A stretch of 59,894 nucleotides of DNA. Source: an uncultured Ignavibacteriota bacterium (GTDB taxonomy: Bacteria; Bacteroidota; Ignavibacteria; Palsa-1295). A program made the translations under genes and the position numbers. The notes beneath the pieces were generated by a model. That model had not been told where the DNA came from. It saw only the letters and a program-made list of their open reading frames with translations, and did not search any database. Shown in pieces: positions 43,446-52,908 of this stretch. Every line of letters begins with the position of its first letter. The first letter of the stretch is position 1. The DNA lies in NCBI GenBank assembly GCA_903900335.1, contig CAIUMP010000037.1, forward strand, positions 1 to 59,894. The letters are read 5' to 3'.

Positions 43446-43888
43446 ATATCTTAGTACTCAACGGACCCAGTCTAAACCTACTTGGCGAGCGCGAGCCTGC
43501 GCTTTATGGAACGGCGACGCTACGTGATGTCGAGAAAATGCTGAAGGACGAGGCCGCGATTCACGGTGCCAGCTTGCACTTCCTGCAGTCCAACCACGAG
43601 GGGGTGCTTATCGACAAGCTCCATGAGGAGCGCCACTGGGCAAATGGTATTCTCATGAACCCTGGTGCGCTTACACATTACTCCTATTCACTTAGGGATG
43701 CAGTGGCAGCGATCAATAAACCGATGGTGGAAGTGCATTTGACGGATCTTACGAAACGGGAGGAGTTCCGTAAATTCAGTGTCTTCGAAGGTGCGACCAA
43801 TGTACGCCGCATCATGGGGCGCGGCGCGCAAGGGTATGTGGATGCGCTGCGAATGCTGGTCAACCCGGAGGGCTCTACCGCAGCATGA
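43442..43888 (+). CDS. aroQ: Type II 3-dehydroquinate dehydratase
   Basis: 148 residues. LVLNGPSLNLLGEREPALYG with the catalytic Arg/Tyr region, LQSNHEGVLIDKLHEE, MNPGALTHYSYSLRDA, and MVEVHLTDLTKREEFRK with the catalytic His. Dodecameric enzyme that dehydrates 3-dehydroquinate. NGPSLN replaces the usual NGPNLN, a mild deviation. Overlaps its neighbours on both sides by 4 nt. Confidence 0.95.
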   Translation: MNILVLNGPSLNLLGEREPALYGTATLRDVEKMLKDEAAIHGASLHFLQSNHEGVLIDKLHEERHWANGILMNPGALTHYSYSLRDAVAAINKPMVEVHLTDLTKREEFRKFSVFEGATNVRRIMGRGAQGYVDALRMLVNPEGSTAA

Positions 43889-44754
43889 AGAAGCTACTCT
43901 CCTTTGTAAAGATCGAGCACACGCTCTTTTCCCTGCCGATGATCTACTCCGGTATGGGGCTTGCTCTTCATGCGGATTGGCTTTCGGGCACACCAAAACC
44001 GGACGCAATGACGTTGGTATCGAAGGGATTACTGATACTCGGCGCCGCAACAGGCGCGCGGACGATCGGCTTTGCGGTGAATCGAATCGTTGATCGTCAC
44101 ATCGACGCAAAGAATCCACGCACAGCAAACCGCGAGTTGCCATCCGGCAAGATGACACTTGCACAGGCCTACGTGGTGATCGCCGGTGCGGTGATACTCT
44201 ATCTTGCGTGTGCTGCTTCCTTGAATAGTCTGTGCCTGATGTTGTCGCCGATACCCGTTGCTATTTTTTGCATTTATCCATTCATGAAGCGCTTCACTTC
44301 GCTGGCGCATTTCGGGCTTGGTGCTTCGCTCGCGCTGGGACCGCTGGGCGGTTACTTTGCAGTAAGGCCATCGCTGGATGGCGTTTTTCCGGCAGCACTG
44401 TTATCGCTCTTCACCTGGCTGTGGGCTTCCGGCTTTGACATAATCTATTCCACATCCGATGAAGAGTTTGACAAGCGGCAAGGGCTTTACTCGTTGCCTT
44501 CAAAGTTTGGTACAAAGAAGGCGCTTCAAATATCAGCTGGAATACACGTTGCAGCATTCATTGTGCTGATCGGAGTGTATTTGACAACATTCACAGGCAG
44601 TGTAGTGGCGCTCTTGCTATTAGTAGAAGCAGGAATATTACTTTACCTTGAACAAAAAAAGGCATCCGATGTGGAGCTTGCCTTCTTTAAGATCAATGCG
44701 GTGCTTGGCTTCGTCGTCATGCTTTTTGTTTTGTTAGGAGGATTAACTTCATGA
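43885..44754 (+). CDS. mqnP: UbiA-family prenyltransferase (menaquinone pathway, MqnP-like)
   Basis: 289 residues with about eight membrane helices. The two prenyl-diphosphate motifs are NRIVDRHIDAKNPRTANREL (Asn/Asp-rich, residues about 70-90) and DIIYSTSDEEFDKRQGLYSL (about 187-206). UbiA enzymes attach an isoprenoid tail to an aromatic acid. The neighbours are ubiX, ubiD, mqnEA and mqnC, so the substrate is most likely 1,4-dihydroxy-6-naphthoate, as for MqnP of the futalosine route. It overlaps both neighbours by 4 nt. Confidence 0.9.
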   Translation: MKKLLSFVKIEHTLFSLPMIYSGMGLALHADWLSGTPKPDAMTLVSKGLLILGAATGARTIGFAVNRIVDRHIDAKNPRTANRELPSGKMTLAQAYVVIAGAVILYLACAASLNSLCLMLSPIPVAIFCIYPFMKRFTSLAHFGLGASLALGPLGGYFAVRPSLDGVFPAALLSLFTWLWASGFDIIYSTSDEEFDKRQGLYSLPSKFGTKKALQISAGIHVAAFIVLIGVYLTTFTGSVVALLLLVEAGILLYLEQKKASDVELAFFKINAVLGFVVMLFVLLGGLTS

Positions 44755-45323
44755 GCGAACGCCCGAAACGAATTGCCGTAGGTATAACGGGTTCGAGTGG
44801 CGCAGTCTATGCGCTGGATTTTTTGAAGCGATGCCCGTACGATAAATACCTGGTTGTTTCGAAGTGGGGGAAGGCCATTCTAAAGGACGAGCTCGGCCTT
44901 GCCGACCCCATTGCGGATCTCGCACCATACTATAAGCGGAATTTTCTTGACTCGGATATGACAGCTCCGCTTGCCTCTGGTACGAATCACATTGATGCGT
45001 TCGTGATTCTTCCAGCTTCGACCAGCACCATCGGTAAAATAGCTTCTGGTATTGGTGACACGCTGCTGACGCGAACGGCAGCGGTCTGTTTGAAGGAGCG
45101 TACGAAGCTCATAATTTGCGTTCGGGAGACACCGCTATCGACAATTACTCTGCGCCAGTGTGCGGATCTCTCTGCAGAGGGGGCGCTCATCATGCCGATC
45201 TCCCCGCCATTATACTTTGTACCGAAGACGGTCGAGGAGTATGTTCAGGGATTTGTGAATAAAGTGCTGGCGCATGTTGGAGTGGAAGTTGGCGGTGGAT
45301 GGCGTGCGGAGGAATTAGAGTAG
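44751..45323 (+). CDS. ubiX: Flavin prenyltransferase UbiX
   Basis: 190 residues. IAVGITGSSGAVYAL (FMN loop) at the N-terminus, LPASTSTIGKIASGIGD in the middle, and RETPLSTITLRQCADL, all diagnostic. UbiX prenylates FMN to make the prFMN cofactor of UbiD decarboxylases; ubiD is the next gene, one base away. In the futalosine route this pair is thought to act after ring prenylation. Confidence 0.94.
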   Translation: MSERPKRIAVGITGSSGAVYALDFLKRCPYDKYLVVSKWGKAILKDELGLADPIADLAPYYKRNFLDSDMTAPLASGTNHIDAFVILPASTSTIGKIASGIGDTLLTRTAAVCLKERTKLIICVRETPLSTITLRQCADLSAEGALIMPISPPLYFVPKTVEEYVQGFVNKVLAHVGVEVGGGWRAEELE

Positions 45324-45324
45324 C

Positions 45325-47157
45325 ATGGCAACGAAAGAACGCGGATTCAACACGTTATCCCAATTCCTCACTCGACTTGAACGTGAGGGCGAAATGCATC
45401 GCATAACGGCAGAAGTCGATCCTCATCTGGAAGCAGCCGAGATCGCGGTCCGTTCGATGCGCGAGGGAGGCAAAGCGCTTTTATTTGAACGCGTCAAGGG
45501 CTCCCAGTATCCGCTGGTGATGAATGTGCTGGCAAGTGATCGGCGCATCGAGATCGCCCTCGATGGCGACCCCGCCACCATCGGGCATCAGTTGCTCAAT
45601 GTGGTCGAGCAGGCGATGCCGCCCAAGCCGCGTCGAATATGGAACGCTGCTCGTCCGCTCATTCCTCGCTTGATGTCGGCCCGTGTGCGCCGGACCAACC
45701 CGCTAGAGCCGCGGCGGGCCTTCGATCAGCCCGATCTTGGTGAGCTTCCGATCCTCCAAACCTGGCCGGAAGACGGAGGTAAGTTCATCACATTGCCACA
45801 GGTCTTCACCTACGATCCGATCACGGGCAAGCGCAATCTGGGCATGTATCGGGTTCACATCTTCGGTCCGAACGAGACGGGGATGCACTGGCAGATTCAG
45901 AAGGGCGGAGGTTTCCACTACTATCAAGCGGAAATGATGAATCGTCCGCTGGAAGTGGCGGTAGCTATTGGCACTGACCCTGCACTGCTGCTCGCCACGA
46001 TCGCTCCGCTGCCCGAAGGCATTGACGAGGTAATGTTCGCCGGTTTCCTGCGTGGCCGACCAACGGAGATGACGCGAGGCAAATCAATTTCGATAGATGT
46101 GCCAACCAACGCAGAGTTTATTCTCGAAGGGATCGTCCCACCGCATGATAGAAGGGTGGAAGGGCCGTTCGGAGATCACTTCGGCCACTATTCGAATGCG
46201 GCACCGTTTCCGGTCTTTCATGTTCGGGCGATCACGCATTTATCGAAGCCGGTGTTTGCCGCGACCGTTGTCGGTAAACCGCCCATGGAGGACAAGTGGC
46301 TCGGCGACGTCAATCAATTGATCCTTGGGCCGCTTGCGAAGTTGATGCACCCGGAGGTCAGGGACATCTGGGCCTTCTACGAATCTGGCTTTCATAATCT
46401 CTTGGGTATCGCGACGAAGCAGCGGTATGGCAAAGAGGCGATGAAGACCGCACTCTCGCTTGTCTCGGACAGTCAGCTTTCGCTCACCAAGTGTGCTGTT
46501 ACGGTCAGCGAGAAGGTGAACAACCGGGACTTCCGCGCGATACTCCGCGCTATCCGCGACAACTTCGATCCGCACTATGATTGGCTGCTGATTCCCAACG
46601 TCGCTATGGATACGCTCGATTTCACGAGCTACACGATGAACCTGGGAAGCAAGATGATCCTCGATGCTACGGTGAAGATGCCAGACTCCGCGAGCGGAGG
46701 CAAGTATCCACCGAGAGCACCGAGCGCGTACTTTCAGCGGACCGGACGCCTGGCGGACGATCCGAAGAACATGGATCTCCGAATCCGGGAAAGCAAGGTC
46801 TTCGAGGATGTTTTGTTGGTCGTGAAAGTGGAGAAGGAGGGCAGGGATGTTGTCGAGAAGCTCGTGGCCGATGCCAACATCGAGCGGTTACCAAAGGGAG
46901 TGAAGATCGTCGCGGTAGTGAGTGAGGACGTGGATCTCATGAGCGACATGGAGGTCATCTGGGGTATCTTCACGCGATTCGATGCCGCCCGCGATGTCAT
47001 TTTCACTCGGTCCGCACTGATCGGCTCCTCGCCTGTCTACGAGGGAGTAATGGGGATCGACGCGACGTGGAAGGTGGGATATCCGAATCCGTGCGTTATG
47101 TCGGAAGAGATCGTTAAGAGGGTGGACGCACGTTGGGGAGAATTTGGTTTCCGATAA
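45325..47157 (+). CDS. ubiD: UbiD-family decarboxylase (MqnL-like)
   Basis: 610 residues, UbiD-type prFMN-dependent decarboxylase. Seen: MREGGKALLFERVKGSQYP near the start, RRIWNAARPL, a LPQVFTYDPITGKRNLGMYR stretch, and EGPFGDHFGHYSNAAPFPVF, the prFMN/Mn2+ and Glu-Arg-Glu active-site region. Adjacent to ubiX and mqnP, so most likely removes the carboxyl group of the prenylated dihydroxynaphthoate. Expected length is ~480-610, so it is at the long end. The 91-bp gap after it is the first sizeable break in the aro-mqn run. Confidence 0.93.
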   Translation: MATKERGFNTLSQFLTRLEREGEMHRITAEVDPHLEAAEIAVRSMREGGKALLFERVKGSQYPLVMNVLASDRRIEIALDGDPATIGHQLLNVVEQAMPPKPRRIWNAARPLIPRLMSARVRRTNPLEPRRAFDQPDLGELPILQTWPEDGGKFITLPQVFTYDPITGKRNLGMYRVHIFGPNETGMHWQIQKGGGFHYYQAEMMNRPLEVAVAIGTDPALLLATIAPLPEGIDEVMFAGFLRGRPTEMTRGKSISIDVPTNAEFILEGIVPPHDRRVEGPFGDHFGHYSNAAPFPVFHVRAITHLSKPVFAATVVGKPPMEDKWLGDVNQLILGPLAKLMHPEVRDIWAFYESGFHNLLGIATKQRYGKEAMKTALSLVSDSQLSLTKCAVTVSEKVNNRDFRAILRAIRDNFDPHYDWLLIPNVAMDTLDFTSYTMNLGSKMILDATVKMPDSASGGKYPPRAPSAYFQRTGRLADDPKNMDLRIRESKVFEDVLLVVKVEKEGRDVVEKLVADANIERLPKGVKIVAVVSEDVDLMSDMEVIWGIFTRFDAARDVIFTRSALIGSSPVYEGVMGIDATWKVGYPNPCVMSEEIVKRVDARWGEFGFR

Positions 47158-47248: not shown

Positions 47249-49177
47249 ATGATCTCATCCAAAGCCTTTACTTTTCGCGATAACTCGCTCTCACCCATCT
47301 GGGATAAAGTCCGAAATGGCGTTCGCCTGACCAAAGAGGACGGTCTTGCTCTCTATGCTTCCGATGACCTGATCGGCCTGGGGCGTATGGCCAATGAAGT
47401 GGCACGTTCGAAGTCCGGGGACAGTGTTTATTTCGTGCTCAATCGCAAGCTTGAGCCGACGAACGTTTGTGTGCTTTCCTGTAAATTCTGTGATTTTGCA
47501 GTGAAGGCGGGCTCGAAAGAGGCTTACGAAATGACGCTGGATGAGATGCTCTCCAAGCTACGTCCGGATCTTCATGAGGTGCACATTACTGCTGGACTCC
47601 ACCCGAGCTGGCCTTGGGAGTTCTACATAGACATGGTGCGCGAGATCAAGACGCAATTTCCGAACGTCGATGTGAAGGCGTTCACGGCAGTCGAGATCGA
47701 CTACTTCTCCAAGAAGTTCAAGAAGAGCCACGAGCAGGTGTTGCGGGAGCTGTATGCCGCCGGACTTCGAACAATGCCGGGTGGGGGCGCAGAAGTCTTC
47801 TCTGAGCGCGTACGTAAGGAGTTATTTAAGCAGAAGATCGGTGCGAAGACGTGGTTCGATGTTCACAAGACCGCGCACAAAATGGGCATCAATTCTAATG
47901 TGACGATGCTCTATGGTCACATCGAAACGATCGAAGAGCGCATCGAGCACATGTTGCGCGTTCGTGAGTGTCAGGATGAGACGAACGGATTTCTCTCGTT
48001 CATTCCGCTCGCGTTTCAACCGGGGAATACCGGCATCAAGACGCGCAACGATTTTACGAGCGCGATAGATGATCTTAAGACCATCGCCGTGTCGCGTTTG
48101 ATGTTGGATAACGTCCCGCATATCAAAGCATATTGGGTGATGCTCACAGCGGAAGTTGCAACTATCGCGCTGAACTTTGGCGCGGATGATATGGACGGCA
48201 CGGTTGGTGAAGAGCGTATTGCGCATGACGCTGGCGCGATCAGTCCGATGGAGCTTGCAAAGGGTAAGTTGATCTCTATCATTCATGAGGCGGGGAAACT
48301 GCCGGTCGAGCGCGATGTATGGTACAACCCGATCGAGATCTATCCGGCCAAGGGCACAACGGTCGTGAGCAAGATGCCGTACTTGAACAGCGTGCCGTTC
48401 TATCACGAGTTCGCACCAGCGCTAAAGAACATTGAAGTTGCGCCGCTGATGCCAAGTGTGCTCGGGCGCTTTGCGCGACTCGGGACCGTTTCGGCGGGAC
48501 CGCTTTCGCTACGTGATTTCATGTCTGTGAGTGATCGTTTTGATCGTCTCGAGTATGGAATTGCGGTCAAGGGCAATGCACATTCTGTTCTGCTATTCAG
48601 CAAATATGGGTGGAGCGATCTCAAGGGTAAGAGGATCGGAATCACTTCAGAGTCTTCGACAAGTATCGAGCTGTTGCGAATTCTTCTTGAGAAACGGCAC
48701 GGCGTACATGAGTACGAGTTTGTCAAACTCCATCCCGCGCAAATTCAAAACAATCTATCAGACTATGATGCGGTCCTACTGATCGGGGACGAGGCCCTGC
48801 GAAATGGTGAACTGGGCGGCATTCCTGGCTTCGACCAGATGTATGATCTTGCTGGCGAGTGGTGCTCGTGGAAGGAACTGCCGTTCGTGTTTGCAGTGTG
48901 GGCCATTGCCAAAGATGTGCCTGCTGAGGCGAAGACGCAGATCACACATTCTCTGGAGAACTCCCTCGTAAGCTCCGCAGGTCACTACGCCGAGATCGGG
49001 CGCGAGCACGGCAAGCGCCTCGGCATGGATGACGCCGCGGTCGATGCCTACTTGCAGACATTCCGCTACCGCTTCGGCATCGACGAACACGCTGCTATGG
49101 CGGAGTTCGAGATGGAGTGGGAGAGCTTGAAGAGAAATAATCGTACGGTACCGGTCGGACATAGTATTGCCGCTTAA
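47249..49177 (+). CDS. mqnEA: Fused MqnE (aminofutalosine synthase) - MqnA (chorismate dehydratase)
   Basis: 642 residues and two whole enzymes. Residues 1 to about 368 are MqnE, a radical-SAM protein: the cluster motif C74-x3-C78-x2-C81 in TNVCVLSCKFCDF, GLHPSWPWEFYID, RTMPGGGAEVFSERVR and MLYGHIETIEERIEHM. From about 370 to 642 is MqnA: MPYLNSVPFYHEFAP (376-390), SAGPLSLRDFM, IGITSESSTSIELLRILL, DYDAVLLIGDEALRNGE and ELPFVFAVWAIAKD. MqnA dehydrates chorismate to 3-(1-carboxyvinyloxy)benzoate, which MqnE joins to a SAM-derived adenosyl group to give aminofutalosine, so the fusion joins steps 1 and 2 in reverse chain order. No stop or frameshift at the junction. mqnC follows 6 bp downstream. 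Confidence 0.93.
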   Translation: MISSKAFTFRDNSLSPIWDKVRNGVRLTKEDGLALYASDDLIGLGRMANEVARSKSGDSVYFVLNRKLEPTNVCVLSCKFCDFAVKAGSKEAYEMTLDEMLSKLRPDLHEVHITAGLHPSWPWEFYIDMVREIKTQFPNVDVKAFTAVEIDYFSKKFKKSHEQVLRELYAAGLRTMPGGGAEVFSERVRKELFKQKIGAKTWFDVHKTAHKMGINSNVTMLYGHIETIEERIEHMLRVRECQDETNGFLSFIPLAFQPGNTGIKTRNDFTSAIDDLKTIAVSRLMLDNVPHIKAYWVMLTAEVATIALNFGADDMDGTVGEERIAHDAGAISPMELAKGKLISIIHEAGKLPVERDVWYNPIEIYPAKGTTVVSKMPYLNSVPFYHEFAPALKNIEVAPLMPSVLGRFARLGTVSAGPLSLRDFMSVSDRFDRLEYGIAVKGNAHSVLLFSKYGWSDLKGKRIGITSESSTSIELLRILLEKRHGVHEYEFVKLHPAQIQNNLSDYDAVLLIGDEALRNGELGGIPGFDQMYDLAGEWCSWKELPFVFAVWAIAKDVPAEAKTQITHSLENSLVSSAGHYAEIGREHGKRLGMDDAAVDAYLQTFRYRFGIDEHAAMAEFEMEWESLKRNNRTVPVGHSIAA

Positions 49178-49183
49178 GACATC

Positions 49184-50368
49184 ATGCTTGAATCAATCAG
49201 AACCCGAGTTAACAACGGCGACCGCCTTTCACGCGAAGAGGGCCGCTGGCTTTTGCAGAACGCTTCGCTCTTAGATCTCGCGGAGCTTGCGGAGACGGTG
49301 CGCTATCGGTTGAACCCGGAGCGCCGCGTCACGTTCGTCATCGACTCCAATCCGAATTACACGAACATCTGCAACATCGACTGCATCTTCTGTGCGTTCT
49401 ATCGGCACGAGGGCGATGCGGATACTTATACTTACACGGTCGATGAGATGATCACGCGCTTCAAGGCTTCGGCCAAGCGCGGCATCAGAACGGTGCTGTT
49501 GCAAGGCGGCGTCAACGCGGCGATCCCGTTCGAGTATTACAAGGAGATGGTTCGCCGCACGCGCGAGGAAGTGCCGGAGATCCATCCGCACTTTTTCTCG
49601 ACGAGCGAGATCATCGGTATGAGCGATGTGTCCGGATTTTCTATTCCCGAGGTTCTGCGTCAGCTTAAAGAGGTTGGGTTGAACTCCATCCCGGGCGGCG
49701 GCGCGGAAATTCTAAGCGATCGCGTGAAGAAGAAAATCTCGAACAAGAAGGGCACGAGCGCCGATTGGCTCGGCGTAATGCGAGAGGCACACAAGCTCGG
49801 ATACAAGACGACGGCGACGATGATGTACGGTCATCTTGAAAAAGACGAGGACATCATCGAGCATCTCTCTGTCATTCGCGATCTGCAGGATGAGTACCAT
49901 GGCTTCACAGCGTATATTCCGTGGAGTTTCAAGCCGGGAAATACGCCGCTCGAAAAAATTATTCCGACGTACGCAACGGGCACGCGATACTTACAGATGA
50001 TCGCCATCGCGCGCATCTTCTTGGATAACTTCCCACACATTCAGGCGAGCTGGTTCTCGGAAGGGAAGAAGATCGGGCAGATCGCGCTGAGCTTCGGCGC
50101 GGATGATTTCGGTGGCGTTCTCGAAGAGGAGAATGTTCATGCCTCCGCGAATTTCGTGCATACAACATCGGTGAAAGAGACTGTGGATCTCATTCGCAGC
50201 GCGGGTTACACACCGGCGGAGCGAACAACACTTTATGACATCATTGCAGAGTACGGGCCTGAAGAATATCCAGCGGCCGTGTTGAACTCCGCTCGGCTTA
50301 GCGTACATACGGATGCTGGCGCGATCATGCACTCCCTGCCGATCATTCAAGCTGCCGTATTGGCGTAA
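49184..50368 (+). CDS. mqnC: Cyclic dehypoxanthinyl futalosine synthase MqnC
   Basis: 394 residues, radical SAM. Cluster motif C63-x3-C67-x2-C70 in NICNIDCIFCAFYRHEGD, GGVNAAIPFEYYKEMVRR, SIPGGGAEILSDRVKK, TATMMYGHLEKDEDIIEHL and WFSEGKKIGQIALSFGADD. It closes the cyclic dehypoxanthinyl-futalosine ring, third step of the branch. MqnC and MqnE are sister radical-SAM families; the YRHEGD and (N)SIPGGGAEILSD features fit MqnC. Nothing overlaps its end; the next gene has its own promoter candidate. Confidence 0.95.
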   Translation: MLESIRTRVNNGDRLSREEGRWLLQNASLLDLAELAETVRYRLNPERRVTFVIDSNPNYTNICNIDCIFCAFYRHEGDADTYTYTVDEMITRFKASAKRGIRTVLLQGGVNAAIPFEYYKEMVRRTREEVPEIHPHFFSTSEIIGMSDVSGFSIPEVLRQLKEVGLNSIPGGGAEILSDRVKKKISNKKGTSADWLGVMREAHKLGYKTTATMMYGHLEKDEDIIEHLSVIRDLQDEYHGFTAYIPWSFKPGNTPLEKIIPTYATGTRYLQMIAIARIFLDNFPHIQASWFSEGKKIGQIALSFGADDFGGVLEEENVHASANFVHTTSVKETVDLIRSAGYTPAERTTLYDIIAEYGPEEYPAAVLNSARLSVHTDAGAIMHSLPIIQAAVLA

Positions 50369-51256: not shown

Positions 51257-52072
51257 GTGACCCCAAGAAAGATAGCGATCCTGTTTCACGAGCGTCACCG
51301 GGGCTTCACACTAAACTATCACGTTCAGGAATTTGCACAGATCTGGCGAGAAGAGGGGCACGAGGTTGTTGAGCTATTCGGTGTGAATGAGTTTGTCCCG
51401 GCTGATCTGCTTTTTGTCCACGTTGATCTTTCGGTGGTACCCGAGGAATACCTTCGATTCGGACGACGATACCCGATCGTTCTCAACGGCAGACTGCGTG
51501 ACATTCGTAAATCCAGTTTTAGCAAGATCCGGCTGCAACTCGGTGACATCTACGATGGCAAAGTGATCGTAAAGTCGGATCTGAACTATGCAGGTAAACC
51601 AGAGCGATTTGTAGGAGCGTCCCATCAGATTCGAGAACACGGTATCATGTTCACTTCGCCCATGGAATATCGAGTGTTTGAATCCATCCGGGACGTGCCG
51701 GAGTCGGTTTTTACCGATCCGCTCATGATCGTGGAGCGTTTTATGCCGGAGATTACGGAAGATGGGAAGTACGTTATGCGCGCGATGCAGTTCCTTGGCA
51801 ATCAGGTTGACTGCGTGCAATTTGTGTCCGACACGCCGATCGTCAACGGCTCAACTGGGACCCTCACCGGGTTAGTGGAGCCACATCCAGAGATGCTCGC
51901 GGCAAGGAAGCGGATGTATTTCGACTATGGAAAATTCGATTACGTCCTACACAACGGCCATCCCATCTTGCTCGACACCAATAAAACAGTGGGCGCCGGT
52001 ATCCCGAACGCCCCCGAGGATATTCTCGCGGCCCGCAGGAAGCGAGCCGACGGTATCTACGATTACTTCTAG
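51257..52072 (+). CDS. ATP-grasp-like protein of unknown substrate
   Basis: 271 residues with a GTG start. An N-terminal Rossmann-like segment (KIAILFHERHRGFTLNYHV) precedes an ATP-grasp-type core: KVIVKSDLNYAGKPERFVG (lysine-bearing strand and flexible loop), IVERFMPEITEDGKYVMRAM, and KFDYVLHNGHPILLDTNKT, where Asp-Thr-Asn matches the metal-binding D/E-x-N ending of the fold. ATP-grasp enzymes usually ligate a carboxylate to an amine or thiol. The GRYPIVLNGRLRDIRK stretch may bind substrate. It ends tail-to-tail on mqnD, sharing CTAG at 52069-52072. Confidence 0.6.
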   Translation: MTPRKIAILFHERHRGFTLNYHVQEFAQIWREEGHEVVELFGVNEFVPADLLFVHVDLSVVPEEYLRFGRRYPIVLNGRLRDIRKSSFSKIRLQLGDIYDGKVIVKSDLNYAGKPERFVGASHQIREHGIMFTSPMEYRVFESIRDVPESVFTDPLMIVERFMPEITEDGKYVMRAMQFLGNQVDCVQFVSDTPIVNGSTGTLTGLVEPHPEMLAARKRMYFDYGKFDYVLHNGHPILLDTNKTVGAGIPNAPEDILAARRKRADGIYDYF

Positions 52073-52908
52073 TAGAGAGTGATTTCTCCGACTGGAGGGA
52101 TGATGTTGTGCTCTGCCCCTAAGTTGAAAAGATACTCCAGCGCCTTTTTGCCGCGCTCGCCCATGTCGATCGTTACGTCATTGACGTACATCTTTACGAA
52201 GCGCGCACCAGTCTCTGCGTCAATTCCGCGGCCCCACTGAAGAGCGTATTCGACGGAGTCCTTCTCGTTGTCATATGCGGCCTTGATGGAATCGCGAAGT
52301 GCTTGAGAGATAACGCGGGCGGTCTCTTCGCCCATATCCTTACGGACACAATCGAGGCCAAGTGGGAGAGGAAGTCCACCGGTCTTTTCCTGCCAGATCA
52401 GACCGAAATCCGCAAGCAAATTGAGACCGTATTCTTGCCAGGTGATCTGTCCTTCGTGAATCAGCAGGCCCGCATCCACATCGCCTTCGAGGACGGCGTC
52501 AATGATCGCATCGAAGGACATCTCCACCGATTTGATATGGCCGAACCACGAGCGAAGAAGAAGGTTTGCAGTCGTGAGCTTTCCCGGCTGTGCAATGACG
52601 GCACCCGGATTGGCCTCCAGCTCTTCGATGGTCTTATACTTTTTCGAGACGATGATAGGACCATAGCCCTCACCCATCGACGCGCCGGTCTTCATGATCC
52701 AGTATTTATCTGAGACGTATGGATACGCGTGCGCGCTGATGGCTGTCACCGGCATTTCGCCGGTCATCGCTCGGACATTCAGCGACTGAATATCGTCGAG
52801 GACGTGATCGATTTCGAAACCAGGAATGGTCACCTTCTTGGAGGCAAAGCCGTAAAACATGAAGGCGTCATCAGGGTCAGGGGAGTGGCCGATTTGTAAG
52901 TTTACCAA
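52069..52908 (-). CDS. mqnD: 1,4-dihydroxy-6-naphthoate synthase MqnD
   Basis: 279 residues, periplasmic-binding-protein fold. LQIGHSPDPDDAFMFYGFA at the N-terminus, the diagnostic MqnD start, then EMPVTAISAHAYPYV, GYGPIIVSKK, QPGKLTTANLLLR, LLIHEGQITW with the catalytic His, and GGLPLPLGLDCVRKD. It cleaves cyclic dehypoxanthinyl futalosine to 1,4-dihydroxy-6-naphthoate. On the opposite strand from the other mqn genes, with its own upstream pair of small membrane-protein genes. Confidence 0.95.
   Translation of the reverse strand: MVNLQIGHSPDPDDAFMFYGFASKKVTIPGFEIDHVLDDIQSLNVRAMTGEMPVTAISAHAYPYVSDKYWIMKTGASMGEGYGPIIVSKKYKTIEELEANPGAVIAQPGKLTTANLLLRSWFGHIKSVEMSFDAIIDAVLEGDVDAGLLIHEGQITWQEYGLNLLADFGLIWQEKTGGLPLPLGLDCVRKDMGEETARVISQALRDSIKAAYDNEKDSVEYALQWGRGIDAETGARFVKMYVNDVTIDMGERGKKALEYLFNLGAEHNIIPPVGEITLY

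Follow-up and report, generated by a model that had tools for sequence, protein, structure and literature searches.

A predicted bifunctional MqnE-MqnA fusion enzyme of the futalosine pathway in an uncultured Ignavibacteriota bacterium

The DNA analyzed in this study, referred to below as the window, is a stretch of 59,894 nucleotides from an uncultured Ignavibacteriota bacterium (contig CAIUMP010000037.1 of assembly GCA_903900335.1). An mqnE-mqnA fusion gene occupies positions 47249..49177 of its forward strand and encodes a protein of 642 aa; the 642-codon open reading frame starts with the ATG at 47249, ends with the stop codon at 49175-49177, and contains no internal stops. Its N-terminal part, residues 14-362 (47288..48334, +), is the MqnE (aminofutalosine synthase) domain. 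Residues 17-362 match the TIGR03700 (MqnE) profile over its whole length (1-351 of 351) with 481.2 bits, the curated equivalog cut-off being 434.55, and the best solved relative by sequence is 6xi9 (291 bits). After a junction with a nearly nil linker, residues 363-372 (48335..48364, +), delimited by aligned junctions and by the model strands 361-364 and 371-375, comes the MqnA (chorismate dehydratase) domain, residues 373-621 (48365..49111, +). It is assigned from PF02621, the MqnA/MqnD family (151.7 bits against a cut-off of 26, residues 373-620), from solved MqnA chains and mutants, and from conservation. The best solved relative of this half is the chorismate dehydratase 7ahr/2nxo (85 bits), and the solved chains that it matches by sequence belong to chorismate dehydratases and DUF178 relatives. 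The initial annotation, which read this locus as MqnE and MqnA in a single uninterrupted frame, and as consecutive pathway enzymes fused in the reverse of their reaction order, is thus borne out.

The fusion gene is preceded by genes encoding a UbiA-type, MqnP-like prenyltransferase (43885..44754, +), a UbiX-type, MqnM-like flavin prenyltransferase (44751..45323, +; TIGR00421 over its cut-off), and a UbiD-type, MqnL-like decarboxylase (45325..47157, +). The UbiA and UbiD neighbors score below the strictest equivalog cut-offs: the former is over the cut-off of TIGR01475 with the MqnP models below theirs, and the latter has 482.0 bits with TIGR03701, just below the cut-off of 495.9. The mqnC gene (49184..50368, +; TIGR03699, 452.4 bits vs 428.1) completes this run 6 bases 3' of the fusion gene, and a probable mqnD gene (52069..52908, -) lies on the opposite strand. 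The latter product matches PF02621 with 233.5 bits and has no NCBIfam match; it is assigned by elimination, since it is the only PF02621 protein of the genome besides the fusion. Between mqnC and mqnD lies a 271-aa open reading frame (51257-52072, +) that is convergent with mqnD, the two overlapping by 4 bases; on visual inspection its product resembles ATP-grasp proteins, but neither Pfam nor NCBIfam gives a match. In a relative of the same genus, a gene 3' of the fusion and mqnC (L045:8256-10373, +) encodes a repetitive protein of 705 aa, whose long, near-identical repeats resemble the head repeats of surface adhesins.

No separate mqnA or mqnE gene was found in the genome, where the sole other MqnE homolog is MqnC. 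A single nucleosidase is present, which exceeds the MTAN cut-offs but not that for futalosine hydrolase, and menD has no match in the genome. With mqnA, mqnE, mqnC, mqnD, and a nucleosidase present and menD absent, the gene content is that of the MTAN branch of the futalosine pathway. MenD is over its cut-off in other families of the class; within fusion-bearing families, MenD-bearing genomes are limited to two (G322 and G554, both of family f16), and they have no fusion among the matches listed.

The same two-domain architecture is found elsewhere, in the window's class and in two further phyla. A full-length, stop-free fused frame is present in 65 of the 294 genomes of the class (a count of rows), distributed over nine families (f1, f3, f9, f11, f12, f16, f19, f23, and f66); fused relatives include Bacteroidetes bacterium Centralia_MAG_334, WY3.bin23, and Ignavibacteriae bacterium palsa_1295. 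The phylum holding a "candidate division KSB1" genome has full-length fused copies in five of 82 genomes, and the phylum holding a "Deltaproteobacteria" genome has them in two of 198. In the phylum of a SAR202 genome, 43 of 350 genomes have a match, and none is fused among the matches listed.

A sequencing or assembly error that joined two genes by removing a stop or shifting the frame would give the same appearance. The window comes from an assembly in draft state (62 contigs), and false fusions do arise from assembly gaps elsewhere: the seeming triple fusion MqnE-MqnA-MqnC of 898 aa at L069 was rejected on account of an N gap. Nevertheless, 48 distinct sequences, drawn from many independent assemblies, align across a nearly linkerless, open junction, which reads PVERDVYYNPLxLYxDNVIGKIPYLNSVPF in most of them and PVERDVWYNPIEIYPAKGTTVVSKMPYLNSVPF in the window; the junction is likewise open in the 65 class genomes. 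In no close relative are mqnA and mqnE separate or the junction interrupted by a stop, and the breaks seen in relatives never fall there; they are assembly gaps in L069 and L073 and, in G1020, a frame break within the MqnE portion. An artefact is therefore regarded as having a negligible probability. Several other candidates were discarded. The frames of "677 aa" in G070 and "691 aa" in G442 are not additional MqnE-MqnA fusions, the genes being separate; L073 is not a natural split, as its assembly has an N gap; and L108, a seeming unfused outlier of the first tree, is a contig-edge fragment with its MqnA in a fused frame.

Both activities of the fused protein are inferred. The C-terminal MqnA domain would form 3-[(1-carboxyvinyl)oxy]benzoate by dehydration of chorismate; to this product the radical SAM MqnE domain at the N-terminus would add the 5'-deoxyadenosyl radical, yielding aminofutalosine. 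The radical SAM cysteines of the CxxxCxxC motif, C74/C78/C81 (47468..47491, +), already pointed out in the initial annotation, are invariant in 47 fused proteins. In the same set N380 and S446 of the MqnA domain are invariant and Y601 is conserved in at least 90%; these three residues align with those mutated in structures of the S. coelicolor MqnA (N to S in 7an7, S to A in 7an8, and Y to F in 7an9). The MqnE part is under purifying selection, with a dN/dS of about 0.03 among members of the same genus; the MqnA part has a pN of 0.22-0.26, well below its pS of 0.76-0.80, with dS saturated. The faster divergence of the MqnA part could be taken to mean that one domain has no catalytic activity and plays a regulatory or structural role instead, for instance an MqnA domain merely binding chorismate. 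Conservation of the three catalytic positions argues against this, as does the lack of a second MqnA or MqnE in a genome that retains mqnC, mqnD, and MTAN, and we consider a dead domain very unlikely.

The AlphaFold2 model of the fused protein (69 sequences) has a mean pLDDT of 91.5 and a pTM of 0.91. By the definition of pTM, the latter value for a two-domain chain implies that in the model the domains of ~365 and ~265 residues would have a defined relative orientation. Foldseek searches with the model retrieved 6xig (MqnE) and 7an7 (MqnA) for the respective halves, and for the MqnA half the MqnA chains rank far above MqnD (2czl).

The fusion would be just apparent if two polypeptides were produced after all, either by cleavage or from an internal start near codons 372-376, where an in-frame GTG (V372) and ATG (M376) are present at the junction. 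The latter had been proposed initially as the first residue of MqnA, an assignment that does not hold, the domain starting at about residue 370 (TVVSKMPYLN). The methionine is specific to the window's family, most members outside it having isoleucine or valine there (GKIPYLN), and it adjoins the first strand of the domain, residues 371-375, which a start at 376 would delete. Given also the nearly nil linker and the high pTM of the model, two separate polypeptides seem very unlikely, and we prefer the single bifunctional chain. If that chain is uncleaved and the internal start unused, a fixed 1:1 stoichiometry of the two activities follows trivially. One could further speculate that the chain is the functional unit, holding the active sites in a fixed geometry and passing the MqnA product directly to the MqnE site, but such channelling is rather doubtful at present. 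The instability of the intermediate is a weak argument for it, because the MqnA product is sufficiently stable for preparation and use as a substrate of MqnE in vitro.

In the MqnE-domain trees a single clade holds all fused copies (100/97 in the careful tree); its only member labelled "separate" in the first tree, L073, is explained by the assembly gap. The MqnA-domain tree likewise unites the fused copies (SH-aLRT 99). The KSB1 copies are the earliest branch of the fused clade in the MqnE-domain tree, and the position of a "Deltaproteobacteria" copy (L068), nested within the window's class, suggests a transfer. Judging from these trees, the fusion is of one origin and was then kept. The earlier proposal that the fusion marks a lineage holds insofar as the proteins form one clade; it does not hold for organisms, since this clade spans most futalosine-using families of the class and includes members of two other phyla, so the fusion does not cleanly mark a single lineage.

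The tree neighbors of the fused clade are separate, adjacent mqnE-mqnA(-mqnC) genes of Chloroflexota, Latescibacterota, and Acidobacteriota. In four such loci (L076, L077, L079, and L083) mqnA can start in the +1 frame inside the final codons of mqnE; for instance, in L079 mqnE ends with ..IYDN* and mqnA has MTIRVGQIPYLN. The fused junction fits either a net gain of 2 bases or a loss of 1 base plus one codon. Given this out-of-frame overlap, a small indel within it would account both for the fusion of these neighboring operon genes and for its reversed order: the domains would follow the gene order of the operon, not the order of reactions. Taking all observations together, we consider it very likely that the window encodes a truly bifunctional futalosine-pathway enzyme, which originated once by an indel in the gene overlap and has no second copy of either half in its genome.

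Other futalosine enzymes were also found fused. In family f4 of the same class, MqnA-MqnC fusions (L125:2652-4865, +; L126:2956-5022, -; L127:2316-4457, -) have frames of 689-738 aa with an N-terminal MqnA and a C-terminal MqnC-like radical SAM domain, the latter scoring 390-406 bits, just below the MqnC cut-off of 428. Four f4 genomes (L126, L127, L163, and L164), which are 99-100% complete, encode nothing that exceeds the MqnE cut-off. The one further homolog in each is an MqnE-like protein of ~370 aa, intact except that the CxxxCxxC motif has been lost (L126:5203-6324, -; L127:4373-5473, -; also in L163 and L164), two of these proteins being 42% identical. In two genomes of the "Deltaproteobacteria"-named phylum, MqnE-MqnC fusions (L153:904-3156, -; L154:582-2768, +) form frames of 729-751 aa with two radical SAM domains, reminiscent of FbiC (CofG-CofH). 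Because fusion of futalosine enzymes recurs in this way, the MqnE-MqnA case is less surprising.

The fused protein would represent a natural, conserved single-chain form of the first two futalosine steps toward vitamin K2 (menaquinone). Because these two steps share one natural chain, the hand-over from a dehydratase to a radical SAM enzyme becomes directly testable, and the protein may serve as a scaffold for structural and inhibitor work. For genome annotation, counting MqnA and MqnE as separate proteins can lead pipelines to underestimate how often the pathway occurs in Bacteroidota and KSB1 genomes.

The initial annotation gave such a fusion as not known to have been described, and no published description of it was found in the full text of open-access papers. 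Fused genes are not mentioned in the main text of Zhi et al. 2014 (PMC3914697) or of a 2026 quinone survey (PMC13386864). Curated models would name this protein MqnE, so it may have been noticed earlier in databases, and we do not claim that it has never been seen before.

Both halves resemble known separate enzymes in fold, catalytic motifs, and inferred reaction, namely MqnE of Pedobacter heparinus (6xi9/6xig) and MqnA of S. coelicolor (7ahr/2nxo) and D. radiodurans (2i6e), whereas here they form one chain with MqnE first and a nearly nil linker. The mqnEAC operons described by Ravcheev and Thiele 2016 (PMC4746308), and seen also in L075-L085, have the same order mqnE-mqnA-mqnC, but their genes are separate, while in the window a single frame combines mqnE and mqnA, with mqnC coming next. 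The fused protein does not belong to the FbiC family itself, having 242 bits with NF006687 (cut-off 1018) and a single radical SAM domain. FbiC (CofG-CofH) of F420 synthesis likewise joins consecutive enzymes of a cofactor pathway, including a radical SAM domain of the CofH/MqnE type; however, FbiC consists of two radical SAM enzymes, whereas the protein described here combines one radical SAM enzyme with a dehydratase of a different fold.
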